Virus record (IMG/VR): IMGVR_UViG_3300034111_001138
Span: 1 to 30,909 of that record
Length of the DNA stretch: 30,909 nt
Strand: one strand, 5' to 3'
From: a virus
The notes under the pieces are model-generated. The model was not told where the DNA came from and made no database searches. It saw nothing but the letters and a program-made list of their open reading frames with translations. This document shows positions 1-12,582 of this stretch, in pieces. Within the stretch, counting starts at the first letter, position 1. Each line of letters starts with the position of its first letter. Made by a program: the position numbers and the translations under genes.

Positions 1-1072
1 CATGACGCATGACGTTTCCTGAAAAATCCAGGACCAGGCAATCAGATTTACTAGGCGCTAAACGTGTCCCGCGACCTAGCATTTGAACGTAAAGAGACGT
101 GCTCAACGTCGGACGTAGCATTGCAAACATATCAACGCCTGGGACGTTAAACCCAGTTGTCAGAACATTTACGTTAGTCAGACAGCGAACACGGCCGCTT
201 GCAAAATCTCTTATGATGCGATCGCGATCTACTTTTGGGGTTTTACCCGTAACACTTTCGCAGGTAACACCGCGCTCGCGCATGGCATCACGGACTTCAT
301 GCGCATGATCGACACCCGAGCAGAACACAAGCCACTTACTGCGATCCTCTGCTTTAATGCAGATCTCGTCACATGCATCCTGAGTAACGGCAGAAGCCGC
401 AGCCTCTAACTGACCGGGGATAAACTCCCCCCCACGCCGGCCGACAGCAGAAACGTCGATCGAGTTCTTAGATCCGCGCGCAACTAATGGCGCAAGAAAT
501 CCATCATCAACGCCGCGTCCAATATCATAACTATAAACGATTTTGTCGAAGAGGCGATCTGGCCCCTCATCTAAACGACCGCTATCCAAGCGGTAAGGAG
601 TAGCCGTTAAGCCAAGGACGCGCAGATCAGGATATATTTCGCGTAATTTATCCAGCAGTTTCCGATACTGCCCGCTCTCTTTATGTGGGATGAGATGGGC
701 CTCATCCACTACAACAAGATTACGCTCACCCAGCGCGCCGACATCATATCTTGCTACACTTTGGATTGAGGCAAAGAGAATCTTGTGATGGCGATCTCGC
801 CGTCCTAGTCCGGCGCTATTTATGCCAACGGGTGCGCCAGGCCAATGCGACAGGAGCTCGTCATAGTTTTGACGGACAAGCTCTCGAACATGCGTAAGCA
901 TTAAAACGTTCATTGAGGGATAATCGCCGTGAAGACGGCGCAATACCTCGGCTATTACAAGTGATTTCCCTGTGCCTGTCGCTAACTCGACTAAAGGATT
1001 GCCTCCCCCTTCGGCCCAATAGCTAAAAATCTCATCTACAGTTTCGAACTGATATGGACGTAAATTAAGCAT
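1..1072 (-). CDS. DEAD/DEAH-box superfamily 2 helicase, C-terminus cut by the window edge
   Basis: Reading leftward from ATG at 1072, the frame stays open to base 1, giving at least 357 residues. Visible motifs are Walker A ATGTGKS (residues 31-37), the DEAH box VVDEAH (121-126), motif III TATP (156-159) and a motif VI-like QMLGRGTRL near residue 330. This set defines an SF2 DNA/RNA helicase of the type III restriction/RecQ-like fold. By family knowledge it is an ATP-driven strand-separating motor. Next to a nuclease, ssDNA-binding protein and Sak4-like ATPase it probably serves phage DNA replication or recombination. Its start overlaps the methyltransferase stop by 8 bases, so it is translationally coupled as part of the leftward early operon. 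The missing C-terminus could carry a further domain. Confidence 0.9.
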   Translation of the reverse strand, partial: MLNLRPYQFETVDEIFSYWAEGGGNPLVELATGTGKSLVIAEVLRRLHGDYPSMNVLMLTHVRELVRQNYDELLSHWPGAPVGINSAGLGRRDRHHKILFASIQSVARYDVGALGERNLVVVDEAHLIPHKESGQYRKLLDKLREIYPDLRVLGLTATPYRLDSGRLDEGPDRLFDKIVYSYDIGRGVDDGFLAPLVARGSKNSIDVSAVGRRGGEFIPGQLEAAASAVTQDACDEICIKAEDRSKWLVFCSGVDHAHEVRDAMRERGVTCESVTGKTPKVDRDRIIRDFASGRVRCLTNVNVLTTGFNVPGVDMFAMLRPTLSTSLYVQMLGRGTRLAPSKSDCLVLDFSGNVMRH

Positions 1073-1703
1073 TATAATCCTCCACCCGCTCCAAATCTCG
1101 GCGGCAAGGTTTGATCCAATGAAGCTGTGTGTGACCTGGCAGGCGCGGCGTGCGCCAAATGACCCAGCAATAAGAAGTCGCAGTCGATCCTTTCGGATCC
1201 AGGCGGCCTTTGTGCATCGGGACGCGTTCAGAGAATTGAAGAACGGCTGACGGCGGATTAGTCGTAAACAAATTATTGTAACGACCGACGCCTTCTAGGA
1301 ATGACGTGCGAACCAGGAGCCCCACGCCTTTATGCGCAACCTCTAAGCCACGCAGAGCAAACTTTTCCGCTTTATTGAACGGCGGATTAGTTATGATCCA
1401 GGACGTAAGGCTGCGCTCATTGCTGGGCGACTTTTCAAGAAAATCAATTCCGCCAACGCCGCATCCATAATAATTTATGTCTGTCTCATAAACGCTAGCA
1501 AAATATTCGCTCAACGTGCGCGACATATGCCCGGCGCCACAAGCAGGCTCCCAGCAAATATCCGTTGAGTAAATACAATCATTAGCAAGAAGCCAATTAC
1601 ACAAAGCGCGGGTCGCCCATGGCGGTGTTGGAAAAAAATCCAACTCCTCCTTGGAGTCATGACGCTTGGCCATAACGGCATATGGAGTAGAGGCGACATT
1701 CAT
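1065..1703 (-). CDS. DNA methyltransferase, probably N6-adenine type
   Basis: A 212-residue protein with the SAM-binding motif EPACGAGHM (from residue 52) and the catalytic motif NPPF (106-109), in that order. The early FFPTPPWAT segment is common in phage adenine methyltransferases. NPPF-type motif IV is typical of exocyclic amino methylation, most often N6-adenine. No partner restriction enzyme lies nearby, so it is an orphan that may protect phage DNA from host restriction or mimic a host mark. ATG 1703 overlaps the TAA of the upstream nuclease (TAATG), and the stop overlaps the helicase start. A second in-frame Met at residue 11 is an alternative start. The recognition sequence cannot be read from the protein. 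Confidence 0.85.
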   Translation of the reverse strand: MNVASTPYAVMAKRHDSKEELDFFPTPPWATRALCNWLLANDCIYSTDICWEPACGAGHMSRTLSEYFASVYETDINYYGCGVGGIDFLEKSPSNERSLTSWIITNPPFNKAEKFALRGLEVAHKGVGLLVRTSFLEGVGRYNNLFTTNPPSAVLQFSERVPMHKGRLDPKGSTATSYCWVIWRTPRLPGHTQLHWIKPCRRDLERVEDYNA

Positions 1704-2665
1704 TATATCGCCTCCGGTATTTGTGGCTTAGGATCCCTGCCGTCGACGTAGATCGCATTATCTTCATGCGCGACACGAAGTTGATATGTGACCGTATGAT
1801 CAAGCTCAGATGAGTCGATAACTTCGCCAGGAACAAGCTCAGGAATATAAATGTGATGCTCACAACCGCGCTTTTGCTCGGCGTAAGAAAGCATACGGTC
1901 CTCGCGACTGCACACCCATGTCTTTCCATCAACAATGCCTGCAAAAACGCAGGTTCGACAATGAACACGCGCCCAATCGTCGTAGCGGCAAACTTTCTCA
2001 TGCTTACACCAGCGACAGAGAAAAGATTCTTGTTTTGGCGGCGGCTCATTGGCATGCGCAATACGATCCGCCTTTTCGATAATCTTTGTGGCGACCTCGG
2101 GATTATATTTCACCCGCTCTGCTTCAATCTCATCCGTATTTTTGTTATGGACGATATAAAGCGCGCGCTCCAATTTCAGGCCATGCATATAAATTTGCAT
2201 CTGCATGAAATGGACAGGCTTAGATGCCTCTACGCCTTTAGTGCGAAAATCATTAAATGACTTATCGTTGGCGGTCTTACATTCGAGAAGATGTATCGTC
2301 TTTTCCGCGCACGGAACTCCGACAATCTGTCCATCGGTGGATCCTTGAATGATCCCGCCCAAAAAACTAACGGTCCACTGCTTGCCAGTATTCGGATCGC
2401 GACTTGATACATTGCATCCTATCGCACGAAGATCCTCTATAATGCGCAACTCTTCGCGGTGGCCCGTTTGAAATAAACGCTCTTGCCGCCCATCGTGCCT
2501 TTTAAGAGGAGAAACCCAGCGCAAACCATACCAAAGCGAACGCTCGCACTCATTTCCGATCGAGGAACAGCGCAAGTTTTCATCGTCAACTGGCGTTTGC
2601 AACGCCTGATAGTGCTGCTCAATACGCTCAGCAACGGGAGATTTTGTTTTATCGAGTCCTGCCAT
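1703..2665 (-). CDS. PD-(D/E)XK nuclease, Cas4/RecB-like, with two cysteine clusters
   Basis: A 320-residue protein. The nuclease core is seen as GSTDGQ (Asp111) followed by LLECK (Glu128, Lys130) and the helix QMQIY (155-159), the usual D...ExK...QxxxY order of RecB/Cas4 exonucleases. Cys40 in an NECERS segment, together with Cys217, Cys220 and Cys226 (CRWCKHEKVC), matches the four-cysteine pattern that binds an iron-sulfur cluster in Cas4/AddB proteins. A second set, Cys236, Cys239, Cys253 and Cys269, looks like a zinc ribbon after it. It probably resects DNA ends to feed the neighbouring ssDNA-binding protein and Sak4-like ATPase. No CRISPR genes are near, so a Cas role is unlikely. Metal content is inferred from cysteine spacing. 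Confidence 0.82.
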   Translation of the reverse strand: MAGLDKTKSPVAERIEQHYQALQTPVDDENLRCSSIGNECERSLWYGLRWVSPLKRHDGRQERLFQTGHREELRIIEDLRAIGCNVSSRDPNTGKQWTVSFLGGIIQGSTDGQIVGVPCAEKTIHLLECKTANDKSFNDFRTKGVEASKPVHFMQMQIYMHGLKLERALYIVHNKNTDEIEAERVKYNPEVATKIIEKADRIAHANEPPPKQESFLCRWCKHEKVCRYDDWARVHCRTCVFAGIVDGKTWVCSREDRMLSYAEQKRGCEHHIYIPELVPGEVIDSSELDHTVTYQLRVAHEDNAIYVDGRDPKPQIPEAI

Positions 2666-2727
2666 GACAAAGTTCCGGCGTTCTCGGAATCAAATGATTC
2701 CAAAGCTAAAAAAATCCTATGAGGAAT

Positions 2728-2749
2728 TGAGCGGCGCGAACGCCGCTCA
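2728..2749 (+). terminator. Strong hairpin, possible rightward-reading terminator
   Basis: A perfect 9-bp inverted repeat, TGAGCGGCG / CGCCGCTCA, with a 4-base loop, lies in the gap between the nuclease and DUF669-like genes. Read on the plus strand it is followed at once by GTTTTT, as expected of an intrinsic terminator. No rightward gene ends here, so it may stop antisense transcripts. Read leftward the loop is TTCG but the nearest T run is about 13 bases past the stem, so it would be a weak terminator or an mRNA-stabilising stem for the early operon. Confidence 0.5.
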
Positions 2750-2760
2750 GTTTTTAAGGA

Positions 2761-3240
2761 TTATTTACGCATCCAGGGTTGTGCCGCCTGAGGCTTTGGC
2801 ACCGCCGCTTTCACCGGCGCAGAATTTGCAACCTGCGCGCCGTAAGGAAGAAATCCCTTTACGGTGTTTCTAGGCTCAAATTGACCGCTTTTATCGTGTT
2901 CGATAACAACCTTTGCGATAACTGGGATGCCATGAAGATCCTCAGTATTATCGATCGGACCGATACCTGCCGCCGAAATAAGAGACGCGATAACCTGCTG
3001 TCCAATACGCTGTGCGGTCTCGTTCTGATGACGAACCATAATGTTCGCCCAGACTCGACGCCCTTCAAAATCACCCTCAACAACTTTTAGCGTGAGTTTC
3101 ATTTGACGGCCCAAACCCGTTTTGGTATCGACAACGTCGGACTCGATAATTTCGACCACATAACTTCCGGCGGGAAGCGGTTCAAAATTATCGGGTGCTG
3201 GGAGCGTATCAAGAGATAATGTTTCGCCAATGTGTGCCAT
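2761..3240 (-). CDS. DUF669-like single-stranded DNA-binding protein
   Basis: A 159-residue protein opening MAHIGETLSLDTLPAP, with a central beta-rich part (LPAGSYVVEI..., MKLTLKVVEGDFEGRRVW) and a flexible Pro/Ala/Gln-rich tail ending QPWMRK. This layout and the neighbourhood fit the phage DUF669 family, thought to bind ssDNA in recombination modules. It sits 12 bases downstream of the Sak4-like ATPase and upstream of the nuclease, the usual company. The start is ATG 3240, with an AGGA-type ribosome site about 11 bases upstream. Its likely job is to coat ssDNA and work with the Sak4-like protein. No enzymatic motif is visible. Confidence 0.75.
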   Translation of the reverse strand: MAHIGETLSLDTLPAPDNFEPLPAGSYVVEIIESDVVDTKTGLGRQMKLTLKVVEGDFEGRRVWANIMVRHQNETAQRIGQQVIASLISAAGIGPIDNTEDLHGIPVIAKVVIEHDKSGQFEPRNTVKGFLPYGAQVANSAPVKAAVPKPQAAQPWMRK

Positions 3241-3252
3241 TTGTAGTGTATC

Positions 3253-4035
3253 CTATTGGTTTGCGTGTGTCGGAAAATATGGAGCAAGGGCCTCGAACCC
3301 CTTACCCTTTTCGAACTTAATCTTGGCTGGCATTGTGTAGCGATTTTTAGCTACAAATGCCGGCCGACCCTCCGTAAGGATGAAAGTTGTGCTTCCACCT
3401 TCGGCAATCGCTCTACTCTGATTAAAACCGACGTCCTCCTTTCGGGTTGAAATGGACTTTTTCATTAAGAAAATGCAGTCCATGTCGCGCTCGACGGCGC
3501 CCACGCTACGAGAATGTAAGTCGATTTCGTAGCGGTGATAGCTCGACGACTCTGGGTCGTCGAAGCGTTCGATAGAGCTGTGTGCGATAAGGATGACAGC
3601 CATCCCGCGATCGCGGCGCAGCGCATTAATTCCATCGATGAGTTCTTGCCAAACGCGCTGGGCCAGGACGTAACCTTTGCCGTAGCCGAAGCCCTCGATC
3701 GACGATTGCTTATTGCCCTTGTCGTCGCCTCGGGCGCACGTTTCTGCAAAAATTAAACGCTCTAATTCAGTGATGCTATCAATCACGAGCGTCTGGAAAT
3801 TGTGCTCCTCAGTATAAAGAGCGCCAATTGCTTCCATAACCTCAGAAAATTTTTCCAGCTTTCCAAATGAGTTGAGCGTGACGCCGCCAGGCGTGCCATC
3901 TTCGATCTGCAAAAAGATAGGCTCAGGAAATTCAGACGCGAGCGTAGTCTTGCCAATACCTGGATCTCCGTAGATCAGGATCCGAGGAGGCAGCGATACG
4001 CTTACCTTTAAGACGTCCTTTAAAGTTAAAGCCAT
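3253..4035 (-). CDS. RecA-fold AAA ATPase, Sak4-like recombinase
   Basis: A 260-residue protein with Walker A GDPGIGKT (residues 23-30), Walker B LVID (83-86) and a later sensor-like strand VILIAHS. It resembles the phage P-loop family (AAA_24) that includes Sak4, a short RecA/Rad51-like core that promotes ssDNA annealing together with a phage ssDNA-binding protein. The adjacent DUF669-like gene and RuvC-like resolvase support this. A second possibility is a RecA-type loader of unknown partner. Start ATG 4035 has AAGGAT about 9 bases upstream and follows the resolvase stop by 15 bases. It belongs to the leftward early operon. Confidence 0.82.
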   Translation of the reverse strand: MALTLKDVLKVSVSLPPRILIYGDPGIGKTTLASEFPEPIFLQIEDGTPGGVTLNSFGKLEKFSEVMEAIGALYTEEHNFQTLVIDSITELERLIFAETCARGDDKGNKQSSIEGFGYGKGYVLAQRVWQELIDGINALRRDRGMAVILIAHSSIERFDDPESSSYHRYEIDLHSRSVGAVERDMDCIFLMKKSISTRKEDVGFNQSRAIAEGGSTTFILTEGRPAFVAKNRYTMPAKIKFEKGKGFEALAPYFPTHANQ

Positions 4036-6255: not shown

Positions 6256-6579
6256 ATGTCAAAAGATTTTAAGTTCCACAATCGTTCGACCGAAGATCTC
6301 GCGGATGAGTATGGCTCGGTTAAGCAACAGATTACTGCGTTGGACGAGCACGAAAAAGAGCTTGGCGAGGAACTTAAAGCTAGGATCGATGATGTGCAGG
6401 CTATCGGTCGCAAATGGACCGTAAAGAAGTCAGTCGCAAAGGGTCGCACAACTCTCGACGTTGACGCGATACGCAAGTTGTTGGGTGAAGAAATTAAGAA
6501 ATACGAAAAAGTGGGTCAGCCATCTGCCCGCTTGCTCGTTAAGCCGACAATGATTTTGGGCGAGTCGGCTGCCGAATGA
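6256..6579 (+). CDS. Small charged coiled-coil protein of unknown function
   Basis: A 107-residue protein with a predicted helical, heptad-like stretch (SVKQQITALDEHEKELGEELKARI from about residue 21), then a KWTVKKSVAKGRTTLDVDAI segment. It is first in the rightward operon after a good promoter and ribosome site (GGGG before ATG), and its TGA overlaps the next ATG (ATGA). I do not recognise a characterised family. Being cotranscribed with the excisionase-like gene and integrase, it may help integration, excision or their control. Confidence 0.7.
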   Translation: MSKDFKFHNRSTEDLADEYGSVKQQITALDEHEKELGEELKARIDDVQAIGRKWTVKKSVAKGRTTLDVDAIRKLLGEEIKKYEKVGQPSARLLVKPTMILGESAAE

Positions 6580-6920
6580 ATAAGCCGTTTTACTCAGACA
6601 AAGAGTTGGCGAAATTATTCGGGCTCAGCTTCGAGCAATGGACCGCCGCGTCTGTTGTTCTCGAACGAAAGGGGTTTCCTAAAAAGGATCCTCAGTTCAA
6701 CAACCAACGATACTGGCGCGGGATCCAGGCATTTCTAGATCGTCGATCTGGAGTCCTGGAAGTAACGCCAGGGGAACAGGAAAGCGAAAATGCTATACGC
6801 TGGAATAGAAATAGCGGGGTTGGTTCAAAGAGCCTCAAAAGACGGGACGACGCGCCTGTATTGGAGAGCTCCGAGGCCAGCCATCGCACTACGCTACGAG
6901 CCGTCATTAATAAGAATTGA
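6576..6920 (+). CDS. Excisionase-like small protein (DUF4224-type context)
   Basis: The first 60 residues (MNKPFYSDKELAKLFGL... YWRGIQAFLDRR) look like a winged-helix or MerR-like DNA-binding domain and resemble small proteins found directly before phage integrases, such as DUF4224 proteins. It is coupled to the preceding gene by ATGA. The remaining 40 or so residues overlap the integrase gene by 131 bases in another frame and look like low-information sequence imposed by that gene. Likely role: bind attP arms and direct excision or regulate the integrase. Similarity is judged by eye. Confidence 0.6.
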   Translation: MNKPFYSDKELAKLFGLSFEQWTAASVVLERKGFPKKDPQFNNQRYWRGIQAFLDRRSGVLEVTPGEQESENAIRWNRNSGVGSKSLKRRDDAPVLESSEASHRTTLRAVINKN

Positions 6921-7992
6921 AGAAACGGACCCAAAAGAAGTTGCGGCAGTTTGTGCTCAGTTGCAGGCAGAGGCTCTGGAATGGATCGCAACACAAACTG
7001 GTGCCGTAATACAGATTAAAAAAGAACCCACATGGTCTGATCTTGCGCGCGCATATGTTCTGAACGCTGACAGTCCATACCACAGTGTTAAATTTAACAC
7101 GCGCAAGACTTATCGCTTCGATCTCGACGCACTCGATGGGTTGATCGGACATGTCAAACTTAGTGCGATGAATCTTGCTTTCTTCAAAAAGCTATATGAC
7201 GGGATCCGACACAACGGGGACGGTAAGGATCACGTTACCCAGGCACATCGATCGATTTCAATGATGAGGCGCATGATCAGCTACGGCATAGCATCCGAGC
7301 TTAAAGGATGTTCTCGCTTGTCTGAGATACTTCACAACACGCGCTTCGAACAGCCAACCAGGCGTGGCGTCGCCATGACGCGCGAGCACGTCGAGACGTT
7401 CGTCAGGAAGGCCGTGGCGCTCGGGCGCCCTTCCCTGGCGATCTCTACCGCCCTGCAATTTGAAACGTCCCTACGCCAGCGCGACTGCATCGGCGAGTGG
7501 ATCCCGCTTAACGATAAAGCCGCAACATCGAATTTCGTCATCGGTCGCGCAGAATGGGGAAATGGATTGACTTGGGCGAATATTGACGACCAGTGGCGCC
7601 TATCTAAGCGCACGACCAAAACAGGTAAGGTTGTGAGTCATGATCTCACGCTCTGCCCAATCGCATTCGGACTACTTCAAGAGATTCCTGAAAGCGATCG
7701 CATCGGTCCTGTCATTTTAGATGAGCGCGCTGGCCGACCATACGCCAACAATGCGTTTCAGGAGCAGTGGCGCAAGATTGCTAACCTTGCAGGCATCCCA
7801 AAAGAAATCCGCAACATGGACGCGCGCGCAGGCGCGGCAAGTGAAGCTGACGAAGCTGGCGCAACTCTCGATGATGTTCGTTCAACGATGGGACATAGCG
7901 ATGCAAAGACGACATTGCGTTACATTCGCAACAGCGGATTAGAGCAATCTAGGCGTGTTGCAACAGCGCGTCTTAACTTGAAGAACAGGTGA
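6790..7992 (+). CDS. int: Tyrosine recombinase, phage integrase
   Basis: A 400-residue protein with an N-terminal arm-binding part (LYWRAPRPAIALRYEPSLIRI), a core-binding part (WSDLARAYVLNA...TYRFDLDALDGLIG) and a C-terminal catalytic domain: first Arg in TSLRQRD, box II as NMDARAGAASEADEAGA where the usual His is Asp, then MGHSDAKTTLRYIR supplying the late His and the nucleophile Tyr. Asp in place of the first box-II His is common in this alphaproteobacterial subgroup. ATG 6790 has AGGAAAG upstream. The stop lies 63 bases from the attP core, so integrase and site form one module. Role: insertion and excision at a tRNA-Gly gene. Confidence 0.93.
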   Translation: MLYAGIEIAGLVQRASKDGTTRLYWRAPRPAIALRYEPSLIRIEETDPKEVAAVCAQLQAEALEWIATQTGAVIQIKKEPTWSDLARAYVLNADSPYHSVKFNTRKTYRFDLDALDGLIGHVKLSAMNLAFFKKLYDGIRHNGDGKDHVTQAHRSISMMRRMISYGIASELKGCSRLSEILHNTRFEQPTRRGVAMTREHVETFVRKAVALGRPSLAISTALQFETSLRQRDCIGEWIPLNDKAATSNFVIGRAEWGNGLTWANIDDQWRLSKRTTKTGKVVSHDLTLCPIAFGLLQEIPESDRIGPVILDERAGRPYANNAFQEQWRKIANLAGIPKEIRNMDARAGAASEADEAGATLDDVRSTMGHSDAKTTLRYIRNSGLEQSRRVATARLNLKNR

Positions 7993-8001
7993 GAACAAAG
8001 G

Positions 8002-8139
8002 TGTGAAACGCGTGTGGAACGTGAAACTTTTGATTTTTATAAGTGATTGATTTTTGGAGCGGGCGAAGGGAATCGAACCCTCGACATACAGCTTGGGAAT
8101 CAACTCCAACCATTGAAATCATTAAGACACGTTCCACAC
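8002..8139. other. attP: attP: tRNA-Gly(CCC) 3'-half core with inverted arm repeats
   Basis: Bases 8055-8099, read leftward, give TTCCCAA (anticodon loop, CCC), a variable region, a proper T arm (GAGGG TTCGATT CCCTT), the acceptor strand CGCCCGC, A and CCA, that is, the 3' half of a tRNA-Gly. The 5' half does not follow: there is no GCGGGCG partner strand and the anticodon stem fails, although a D-arm-like TTCAATGG remains. GTGTGGAACGTG at 8013-8024 recurs inverted at 8128-8139, and a variant GTGTGAAACGC lies at 8002-8012; these look like integrase arm sites. On insertion the core would rebuild the host tRNA 3' end. It is not a working tRNA gene. Confidence 0.8.
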
Positions 8140-8523
8140 CTACTTATTATTCTTTTTCTGAAACGCCTCCCCACCCGTTGTTAATCCTGGGAAATTAGGC
8201 TGAGGATAGGCTGACTTGTCAGTTGGCTGATCTCTACATTTCAAAGCCATCTCAATCAAGCGATCATTAAGGTCTCGCTCGCGCTGATCTCGAAGCGCGA
8301 TGTATCCGTAAATTCTATCGTCGTTTCTCATCATGTAATATCCAAGAGCCCCTATAATTGTAAGCAATAAAAGGATCATGGCTATCATAATTGGGTTGAT
8401 CTTATAGGCCGTAAGGAGGCTATTCGTCACGGTCGACACCGTGCCCGAGGAAACGGGAACCGTATTATGCTCCTCGTAATCGTATTGAGGAGCTGGGCGC
8501 CGGGGCGGTCTAGGCTTGTCCAT
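8140..8523 (-). CDS. Single-span membrane protein, candidate holin or inner spanin
   Basis: From ATG 8523 (MDKPRPPRRPAPQY...) the protein has 127 residues: a proline-rich, charged N-terminus, one strongly hydrophobic span (about 43-65, INPIMIAMILLLLTIIGALGY), then a charged segment with one Cys (96) and a polar end. The frame extends to 8631, but that part lies within the endolysin gene and looks like overlap. ATG 8523 overlaps the endolysin's last codons by 14 bases. Its place right after the endolysin suggests a lysis role. One span with a soluble C-terminal domain would fit an inner spanin or a class III-like holin; sequence alone does not decide. Confidence 0.65.
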   Translation of the reverse strand: MDKPRPPRRPAPQYDYEEHNTVPVSSGTVSTVTNSLLTAYKINPIMIAMILLLLTIIGALGYYMMRNDDRIYGYIALRDQRERDLNDRLIEMALKCRDQPTDKSAYPQPNFPGLTTGGEAFQKKNNK

Positions 8524-9232
8524 ATTCTTCGTGAGGCTCGTCGTCATAGGCCATGTCAGGCTCAGGCTCGTCAGACATCTCCTCTTCTGGATAGACAAGC
8601 GCCAGGATAGCCTCGCGCACCTCTTCATCATCGCGCAGTGCAGCTAACAACCAATCTCTAAACTCAGGCGTAGATTGCTCCTGGGACATCGCCGCCAACA
8701 CTGGCGCGTCACTCTGAGCCTCGCGCAATGCAGTTCTGAATTTCTCTGCAATCGCAGCAATCTCTTTGTTGCGATCCACGCCGTTAATAATACGACGCGC
8801 GCCAACATAATCTCTGCGACCGTTGCCGATATAATCTGACAATCTCTTGCCAGTAAAAGCGCCTTGCAACATTCCCTCAAACGTCGCGCGCAATGCTATC
8901 GGCCATGACAAGCCGTCCTCTGCTTTGCCAATTCCCCAGCGTTTCCAATTCTGCGACCACGTAACCTGGACAAGTCCAACGCCAATGTAGGGATAATAAC
9001 GCTTTGATCTTAGGTAACGCTCCCCGCCAGCCTCTTTCACTGGCACCATCTTATGCGCCGTCTCCCAATAGATCGTCGCTAAGATATACGACATCTGATC
9101 GAGCGTTATGTCTGAGTGTTCAGCCGTCCAGTAATCAAGGATCTTTTCCATCCCATCGACCTGGCCCTTTGTTAAGCCATTTGTGAAAATCGACTTGCGA
9201 ACAGAGGAAAAGAATACGCCAAAATCAATCAT
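8510..9232 (-). CDS. Endolysin, glycoside hydrolase family 19-like
   Basis: A 240-residue protein with the GH19/phage muramidase pattern: AT-YWETAHKMVPVKE (catalytic-type Glu57 and Glu67), YIGVGLVQVTWSQNW (83-96) and GMLQGAFTGKRLSDYI. No signal peptide or membrane anchor is seen, so it needs a holin to reach the cell wall. The last 60 or so residues are very acidic (EEEMSDEPEPDMAYDDE), an unusual tail that may be a linker or inhibitory segment. It overlaps the fibre-associated gene by 8 bases. Role: cut peptidoglycan glycan chains at lysis. Confidence 0.86.
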   Translation of the reverse strand: MIDFGVFFSSVRKSIFTNGLTKGQVDGMEKILDYWTAEHSDITLDQMSYILATIYWETAHKMVPVKEAGGERYLRSKRYYPYIGVGLVQVTWSQNWKRWGIGKAEDGLSWPIALRATFEGMLQGAFTGKRLSDYIGNGRRDYVGARRIINGVDRNKEIAAIAEKFRTALREAQSDAPVLAAMSQEQSTPEFRDWLLAALRDDEEVREAILALVYPEEEMSDEPEPDMAYDDEPHEEYGQA

Positions 9233-9686
9233 GGATATAACAAGACTTACCTAAAAACTCAGGCCAGAACGCTTTTAATTCATCTGTGTTGGTTGCAACA
9301 TCTATGCGCTGATCTTTTGGCAAATCACGCAATTCTTGCTTCTTGGCAACAATTTCTTTTGTATCAGCGCCAGTTTCTAAAGCGCGTTGAAAAGCAACAT
9401 CTAGTTCAGCCAGCTTGTTAAACCTAGCGCCTCTTAACCTGTCACGATGAAGCTCGCGGGCCTTATTCATATCAACATTAACTACGCCGTTAGCAACAAA
9501 CCAAGCCTTGCAAAACCAATAGTCTGGAAGGTTTTCGTGTTCGACAATCATAGGAGAAAGATTTGCTGGGATGCCTGCAAGTATTTCTTCCGCGCTTGTC
9601 AAAACACTCTCGGCAATTTGAATTGTGGGCCTGTTTTTAATAGGGCCGCTCATATCATTATTGTGAATAACAATTCTCATTGTCAT
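9225..9686 (-). CDS. Fibre-associated phage protein of unknown function
   Basis: A 153-residue protein whose second half ([18 protein letters not shown]..., [26 protein letters not shown]) resembles a conserved phage protein often found straight after tail fibre genes. It starts at ATG 9686, overlapping the fibre stop (ATGA), so the two are translated together. A role as fibre chaperone or tail part is inferred from this pairing. The N-terminus ([16 protein letters not shown]) has no motif I can name. Confidence 0.65.
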
Positions 9687-12520
9687 ACCTTATAATATCT
9701 GGACAAATATTGGCCTTCCGATTGAACCTGGAAAAAATTCCCAGCCTTCACAAAGAAAGACAATGTTGACCATTTAGTGTTGTTATTTATATCGTCGCCA
9801 TAGCGACCGCACTCTTGCGCTGCGCCAGTGCTAGGCCCCGCGTAAGCGCGGAAGTCGTTGGTGTATGGGCCACCACACTCACCGCTAACAAAACAATCAT
9901 AAGGCGCTTGAACCCAAGTGTTCGCAGGAACATCACCAAACGTCTGGTAGTCAGGTATGCCGCCGCCACCAAGCGGGCCTGAGTTAGTAGTTATTGTCCC
10001 ATTTTTGTTGAATTTTATCCAACCATATTCCTGGCTGTTAGTGCTGTTTGTTCCTTGAATAATGCACTTGTCTGGATCTCCTGCTGCGTCCAGCACTGTT
10101 AAAGCGCCGGAAGTCCCGTTACCGTCAGACTTAACAAAGCAACGCGCATTTACATAAGTGTTGTTGTAAAGATCTATGCGGGTTCCGCTGTATCCAATTT
10201 TGGTTTGAGCATTATATTGTAGATACACTGTCTGAGCGGAGATGCTGTAAACAAAGCCAGCCGTTCCACTAGCTCCACCTAAGAAAAGACCTAGATTTCC
10301 ATCAGTGCCGCTAATCGAAAAAGAGTTATTCGCGCCAGGAGGCGAGCTAATTTGAACATCACCATTAACATTAAGGAACGCTCCATAAGCACCATTGCCC
10401 GAGTTCATTGAAATAGAGCCAATGCTAAATTGACCGCCTGTAGTCCACGAAGGAGCGCCAACAGACAACTTAACAGGGGTAATACTTCCGTCAGGTATTA
10501 CTGCGCCGGTGCTAAATCTTGCATCGTCACCAGCAGCAACAGTCCCAGCGGTAGTTCCAACATTCCTTGTTGCGGAATTGCCGAGCAACAAATTCGCTCT
10601 TGCGAATAATGGATCTTGTAGATCGGAAAGATTTTTACTGATCTTTAATGAGCTAGTATCTTCCGGCCCCTGTGGGCCTTGAATTCCTTGCGGGCCTTGG
10701 TTTCCTTGATCGCCTTTCTCACCTGGCGGTCCTTGAACACCGTCGTCTCCTTGTCTCCCTTGCGGGCCTTGTGGGCCAGCCGGGCCTTGCGGTCCGACAA
10801 TTCGCCCAGCAGATGCCCAGCCTGTCCCGTCAGGATCGTCGGCGGTTGATACAAATACATAAATGAACCCATAACGCGGGTTTGTTATATCCGTTGGATT
10901 ATAAATAAGCCCTTCACCCTCTTGAAGCTGGATAGGCCTTGGAGGCAAACCAGGGCCATCCCAATTCTCTGGGATTAATCCATCAACAGGCAATTCCTCC
11001 GGCGTCCTATTGGTAAAGTCGCCTCTTATTTTAGCGGCCCTGCCCGCTTCACCTTGCGGCCCCTGCGGCCCTTGAATTCCCTGTGGCCCCTGTGGGCCAG
11101 GAGGCCCGTCATCCCCAGGAACGCCCTGCGGCCCTTCCGGCCCCTCTACACCCTGAGCGCCAGCGGAACCCTGTTTCCCTTCTGGGCCTCGCGGCCCCTC
11201 TGGGCCAACGACTTTGCCGCTATCAATCCAGCCATCAACTTCTAAACCACCGTTGCCGACAAACGTGAATAAGTGGCCTGTCTTATCTGGAACTTCGGAG
11301 CCATTATAAAGAAGCGCATCGCTGTAACCCATTTGAACAGGAACAGGAGGCTTTCCTGGGCCATCCCAATTTGCTGGGATGAAGCCATCTTTAGGGAGAT
11401 TGAATGGGTTTACGTTATAGAATTCCCCGACGACTGTGAGAGGAACGCCAGCCGGACCAGTCTCGCCCTCTGCCCCTTGCGGCCCTTGTATTCCGCGTGG
11501 ACCTTGTGGCCCTTGCGGGCCTTCTGGGCCGTCAACACCGTTGTTCCCAGGCACACCTTGTATGCCAGGCAATCCTTGGATGCCTTGAATACCCTGTGGC
11601 CCCTGTGGCCCCTGAGATCCTGTATTACCAGCTGGGCCTTCTGGGCCAGGTGGGCCTTGCAATTTGCCGTAATTAATCCAGCCAGCAGGAACAATCCTCG
11701 TCCCGCAATAACCATAGACTAAATCACCCCCCACAAGGTTAGGCTTATAAATAAGCCCTTCGCCAACATTCATTTGAACTGGCGCGGGAGGGTCATCTGG
11801 CCCGTCGAAATCTTTCGGTATTAGACCGTCTGGGGGAAGAGTTGCCGGATCTGCATTATTAAATTGACCGATGATTGTTACGGACTGACCGGGCGCGCCT
11901 TGCTCACCCGCAGGGCCTTGCGGGCCAAACTGGCCCGCCGGGCCTTGAATACCAGCAGGCCCAACATTTCCTTGTGGCCCGATATTTCCTTGCGGCCCTG
12001 GGTTGCCAGGGACACCTTGAATACCTGGGCGACCATCTTCGCCTTGCGGCCCTTCGTTACCTTGAATACCTTGCGGGCCAGGTATGCCCTGTGGGCCAGG
12101 AGGCCCAGGAGGGCCAGCAGGAATATTCTTAATTGAGAACTCAGACTCACGTAGAGCTGAGATAATATAGCCAGTTGTCTGATTAAATTCGCGCCGCCCT
12201 ATTCCTGGTGCCGTAGGCATAACTACTTGGCGCGCTTTGATAGATCCTATTAATTCAATCTTCGTCGCAGATATCGCAGGTCTAAAAGTTACTACGCCGT
12301 CAGTGATAGGCTGAGGAAGAGTGTCTATGTCTTTTCCTGACGCAGAATTAAACGTCCAGTTATCATACTCTATTCCGTTTACTCGAACAGTAATGTCTTG
12401 GGCGTCACCATAAATAGGAAACGAAACAGCAATTGTTGAAAGAGTTTGCCCCGGATTCGGGGTAATCAGCATGTAGCGATCTGCATTAGCTACTGGCGGA
12501 ACGGGAGGGATAACAGCCAT
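9683..12520 (-). CDS. Tail fibre: T7-gp17-like N-terminus, collagen-like shaft with three repeated domains
   Basis: From ATG 12520 (ribosome site GGTGAG) the protein has 945 residues; ATG 12532 is an alternative. Residues 1-135 resemble the T7 fibre attachment domain ([18 protein letters not shown]... [16 protein letters not shown]). Then come four Gly-X-Y collagen-like blocks (about 136-211, 289-359, 439-494, 576-619), separated by three related globular domains of about 80 residues that share G-F-N/T, LP-DG-IP, WDGP and PP-P-Q motifs. The C-terminal 320 residues are rich in Gly, Ser, Asn and Thr and probably bind the host receptor. Collagen-like repeats in phages form trimeric shafts. Role: host recognition. 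Confidence 0.87.
10664..12115 (-). repeat. Collagen-like Gly-X-Y blocks alternating with three duplicated domains in the fibre gene
   Basis: Four runs of GPQ/GPE/GIQ-type triplets lie at 11888-12115, 11444-11656, 11039-11206 and 10664-10795. The spacer domains at 11657-11887, 11207-11443 and 10796-11038 are alignable by eye, so the unit (domain plus collagen block) has been duplicated twice. At DNA level this gives many near-identical 9-base units, a likely substrate for length change by recombination. Confidence 0.9.
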
Positions 12521-12582
12521 ATTTCTCACCATCTTATTCGACGGTCTATTTCTGGCGATTGTTCCCCAAAAGTTAAACGCAC

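Follow-up and report, generated by a model that had tools for sequence, protein, structure and literature searches.

The window, by which we mean the whole stretch of 30,909 nucleotides (30.9 kb) that was analysed, contains an integrase gene directly followed by a 45-base core that matches part of a tRNA gene and is flanked by short repeats. The features of this region are:

6576–6920, plus strand: 114-amino acid open reading frame, candidate excisionase (recombination directionality factor), proposed from position and co-occurrence
6790–7992, plus strand: tyrosine integrase of 400 amino acids (Pfam PF00589 Phage_integrase, E 1.6e-8; PHROG integrase; family alignment)
8001–8011, plus strand: outer putative arm-type site of the P arm, GTGTGAAACGC, a tandem copy at an 11-bp offset
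8012–8023, plus strand: inner putative arm-type site of the P arm, GTGTGGAACGTG, one half of a perfect 12-bp inverted pair
8055–8099, minus strand: attP core of 45 bases, TGGAGCGGGCGAAGGGAATCGAACCCTCGACATACAGCTTGGGAA, a perfect match to tRNA-Gly(CCC) that starts at the 5' edge of the anticodon loop and runs through the CCA
8128–8139, minus strand: inverted putative arm-type site of the P' arm, GTGTGGAACGTG on the minus strand
8510–9232, minus strand: endolysin-like gene (PHROG phrog_181, lysis) on the attR side, where it is the first gene recognised

The integrase gene abuts the core, as an earlier note on this DNA had described, with its reading frame ending at position 7992, 62 bp ahead of the core. 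It encodes a tyrosine recombinase, in which the catalytic residues R229, K277, R346, H369 and Y378 can be aligned. The histidine of box II (HxxR) is replaced by Met343. This position is occupied by methionine, arginine or threonine in all 18 of the 18 aligned family members, never by histidine, and several relatives are visibly integrated. The 114-residue reading frame overlaps the start of the integrase frame by 131 bp in another frame, an overlap also present in the related genomes G002 and G003, and in most relatives a homologue of its product is encoded just ahead of the integrase gene. The homologue from Bradyrhizobium phage ppBjS10J-1 is annotated as a winged helix-turn-helix protein; a fold search with the protein from the window gave a low-confidence model and no match below E 1. 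Position and co-occurrence make it the natural candidate for an excisionase.

Phage genes are located on both sides of the core, also as previously noted: replication and regulation genes to the left, and lysis, tail, capsid, portal and terminase genes to the right. Matches to PHROG families of connector, tail and internal virion proteins identify a podovirus-like, T7-type structural module. Residues of a 949-amino acid tail fibre-like protein, encoded at 9683–12532, include long collagen-like Gly-X-Y stretches. At positions 1–1071, a helicase gene (589 amino acids in G003) is cut by the left end of the window; the 30.9 kb record thus falls short of a complete genome.

The identification of the core as the 3' half of a tRNA-Gly(CCC) gene, and the suggestion that it should be found at the ends of such genes in host genomes, are both borne out by exact matches (45 of 45 bases) in 36 bacterial contigs of a one-genome-per-species collection. 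All those with order-level or finer names belong to the Hyphomicrobiales (Methylocystis, Methylosinus, Chelatococcus, Camelimonas, Alsobacter and Aestuariivirga, plus bins without names), while a few are titled merely Alphaproteobacteria or Proteobacteria. The 5' half of the tRNA adjoins the core in 35 of the 36, the sole exception being an attR junction (L004, see below). ARAGORN found tRNA-Gly(CCC) at the core in each of the 13 contigs scanned among these 35, and none in L004. It also found no tRNA gene over the full window; the 5' half is therefore missing there, in agreement with the earlier note. A plasmid search returned nothing beyond matches of tRNA length.

Junctions and empty site in related prophages

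Prophage contigs of relatives align to the window from position 8099 down to 1 and from 8055 up to 26691. Since the alignments break at 8099 and 8055, the point of permutation is the core, and the prophage gene order is that of the window cut at this point. Contig L042 (IMG/VR 3300033571_027027), which encodes an integrase 81% identical to ours, contains a P arm like that of the window, followed by the core and the 5' half of the tRNA, and is an attL junction. ARAGORN recognises an intact tRNA-Gly(CCC) gene here, and the host gene is thus restored on integration in this relative. Contig L041 (3300033571_004854, with the same dataset number as L042) runs from host DNA through the core into a P' arm and is an attR junction, as is L004, a contig of a Methylocystaceae metagenome-assembled genome. 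Both P' arms start as in the window, with TCAACTCCAACCATTGAAA. The integrase of the Methylocystaceae genome, 83% identical, is located on a separate contig (C108) that ends exactly at the end of the core. The host flank of L004, with genes that we take from their translations to be aroA and cytidylate kinase, aligns over 2.3 kb, at 83.5% identity, with L020, a Methylocystaceae genome in which the tRNA is uninterrupted and which represents the empty site.

Both junctions, the empty attB site and the whole tRNA gene at attL are thus shown in relatives with integrases 81–83% identical to that of the window, which also provides the attL and attR junctions that the earlier note had proposed to look for. 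Together with the exact core matches, the junctions establish tRNA-Gly(CCC) as the target gene. The closest integrated relatives are Methylocystaceae. Among viral contigs, scans for the P-arm and P'-arm sequences brought up L042 and L041 alone; the window phage's own host and its own attL and attR were not found, and the host assignment is made via relatives that are about 80% identical. The GC contents of the window (0.49), L020 (0.486) and the host flank of L004 (0.50) are in agreement. In one prophage contig (L054, G003:C108), positions 1–4000, past the primase gene, contain transposase frames of the IS5 type as well as an AraC-like regulator, which suggests that this prophage has received an insertion or been rearranged.

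We are almost certain that a temperate podovirus-like phage has its intact attP at positions 8001–8139 of the window and that its integrase would bind two arm sites on the left and one on the right and recombine the core with the tRNA-Gly(CCC) gene of Hyphomicrobiales. The tyrosine integrase encoded next to it would occupy the two tandem arm-type sites of the left arm and the inverted site of the right arm, and would recombine the 45 bp of the core with the matching 3' half of the host gene at a putative crossover point. This half would be displaced and the phage core would take its place, which would leave the tRNA gene whole at attL.

As P arm, core and P' arm are joined in the window, a single prophage cannot be what was assembled; the molecule is most likely virion or excised DNA. 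The claim that the phage is not integrated thus holds for the assembled molecule, in line with the prophage order of the relatives, which is the window order cut at the core; further copies of the phage may be integrated elsewhere in the sample. Lambda-type integration can generate an identical P-core-P' junction within a tandem lysogen, and the window could then be the internal junction of dimeric prophages, integrated despite an attP that looks intact. The IMG/VR record, which is linear and lacks end repeats, fits such an arrangement, but double integration would be needed, the contig contains no host DNA and the junctions of the relatives are single and do carry host DNA; we consider this very unlikely. 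Less probable still is an assembly chimera, in which reads from attL and attR were bridged over the 45-bp core. The contig of the Methylocystaceae genome that breaks off exactly at the core end indicates that assemblers meet ambiguity at this point; however, bridging would require overlaps of at most 45 bases, and L045 and L091/G407, two further phage contigs, have the same P-core-P' layout. An intact attP on virion or excised DNA is thus the reading that we prefer, and the earlier note is supported in nearly all respects.

Putative arm-type repeats and the integrase amino-terminus

In the window, the left arm has the sequence GTGTGAAACGC-GTGTGGAACGT and the inverse of the motif is found in the right arm; there are thus two tandem 11-bp copies on the left side of the core and a single inverted one on its right side. 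The perfect inverted pair around the core had been recognised before; it is 12 bp long, with GTGTGGAACGTG at 8012–8023 on the plus strand and at 8128–8139 on the minus strand, and a scan of the 30.9 kb revealed no further perfect copy. A second, tandem copy on the left, GTGTGAAACGCG at 8001–8012, with two mismatches and 11 bp upstream of the left GTGTGGAACGTG, had been overlooked.

Related phages have other motifs, again matched across the core. The left arms of G002/G001 (which we take to be two ends of one prophage, from their common dataset number) and of G003 read GAGTCCAACG(C/T)-GAGTCCAACGT, with the inverse of the same motif in the right arm, while L045 has GGACGGAACT-GGACGGAACG on the left and the inverse, AGTTCCGTC, on the right. 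When the P arm is compared with the reversed P' arm of the same phage, the scores are 12 for the window, 13 for G002/G001, 11 for G003 and 9 for L045, against 6–8 between phages of unlike motif. When the two 60-bp flanks of the window were shuffled, 26 of 20,000 shuffles attained its score; the corresponding numbers are 1 for G002/G001, 23 for G003 and 145 for L045. When P and P' arms of the four distinct phages (with G407 among them) were paired in all 24 possible ways, the true pairing gave the highest summed score, but by a margin of just 40 to 39. G407, with an integrase of 51% identity, retains the tandem pair, although its cross-core match of 6 bp is within chance, and it was dropped as a fourth case of arm covariation. 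The region contains repeated putative arm-type sites distinct from the core sites, as for a heterobivalent integrase of the lambda or L5 type, with three versions of the motif matched across the core.

The integrase varies alongside. Between the window and G003, residues 1–75 are 69% identical and the remainder 86% (Fisher p = 0.002), whereas between G002 and G003, which share an arm motif, the values are 92% and 90%. Divergence of the amino-terminus that tracks the motif would be expected if this part of the integrase reads the arm sites. A model of residues 1–70 consists of three strands followed by a helix, with pLDDT values of 60–79 except for one block of 45 and the rest poorly modelled, and is compatible with an arm-binding domain.

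Gene ends commonly carry inverted repeats, and the first gene across the core converges on this region, so the repeats might be taken for a terminator of transcription or a palindrome with a regulatory role and the core for a decayed or captured tRNA fragment without a role in recombination. The arms, however, are 104 nt apart with no run of T behind them, the motif changes in concert on either side of the core, and the relatives recombine at exactly this core. The attL and attR junctions rule such an explanation out, as far as we can judge, and we give it next to no credence. In each phage the motif is matched on the two sides of the core, and the integrase amino-terminus diverges along with it; this is strong indirect evidence that the repeats are integrase arm-type sites. 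The arm function proposed for them in the earlier note is strongly supported by this concerted change and by similar repeats behind integrase genes of the wider family.

A genome search in Hyphomicrobiales beyond G003 gave integrases of at most 45% identity. Those of 33–45% adjoin tRNA-Gly(CCC) (five genomes) or tRNA-Arg, -His or -Phe, and many have tandem GGAACG-like repeats right behind the stop codon. Most of the integrases located at tRNA-Gly(CCC) with 42–45% identity have tandem GGGGAACG-type repeats past the stop codon; the attR right arm contains an inverted GTTCCCCAT in G108 and G234 and GTTTCCAG in a third case. It is conceivable, though we would not count on it, that arm-type specificity drifts fast in this family while core specificity for tRNA-Gly(CCC) stays fixed, with closely related phages sharing one attB and each recognising, through its integrase amino-terminus, arm sites in a code of its own. 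If so, co-resident prophages would be insulated from each other's integrases.

Comparison with known systems

The attP ties a viral contig to the Hyphomicrobiales, most likely to the methane-oxidising Methylocystaceae, and the lineage of the window phage is shown to be temperate. Related integrases with one core and differing arm sites also form a natural series for testing how arm specificity evolves. Our literature search found no paper on Methylocystaceae phages that use a tRNA-Gly(CCC) attachment site.

Among named phages, the closest integrases (31–34% identity) are those of Microcystis phage Mwe-JY08, Sinorhizobium phage NV1.1.1 and Bradyrhizobium phage ppBjS10J-1. Mwe-JY08 and ppBjS10J-1 have a small upstream protein as in the window, but all three are distant and contain no tRNA-Gly core in the stretch read past the integrase gene. 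The terminase and integrase of Mwe-JY08 (L080, PP395640.1), recorded on the cyanobacterium Microcystis, are 49% and 34% identical to those of the window phage; given this likeness to an apparently alphaproteobacterial phage, its host assignment may deserve a check.

Attachment sites that restore the tRNA gene are textbook knowledge (Islander, PMC4383910). The T7-like cyanophages P-SSP7 and S-TIP37 are likewise podoviruses whose attP lies behind the integrase gene and agrees perfectly with a portion of a host tRNA gene, but there the target is a cyanobacterial tRNA-Leu gene and the match is to its first half; integration requires the integrase and attP, and stable lysogens did not form (PMC8776855). 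Podovirus CRP-3 of the Roseobacter RCA group, for which integration was confirmed by sequencing and PCR (PMC6918029), also infects an alphaproteobacterium and has its core at a tRNA 3' end, although the tRNA is tRNA-Met and the replication module is of another, HMO-2011-like type. The target gene is shared with the Paracoccus prophage vB_PspS_PD39, an alphaproteobacterial prophage with a tyrosine recombinase assigned to tRNA-Gly(CCC) (PMC6536676); this phage is a siphovirus, and the comparison covers target and recombinase type.

The pattern of co-varying arm sites has already been reported for the Cluster K mycobacteriophages (CrimD and relatives; PMC3203893), where 11-bp arm-type repeats flank the core, the right-hand sites are inverted and the consensus covaries with the integrase amino-terminus. 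The window resembles them in its 11-bp repeats inverted across the core and in a motif that varies with the amino-terminus of the integrase. The Cluster K phages differ in having two pairs of arm sites, against two plus one in the window, in infecting other hosts and in the location of attP, which lies 5' of the integrase gene.
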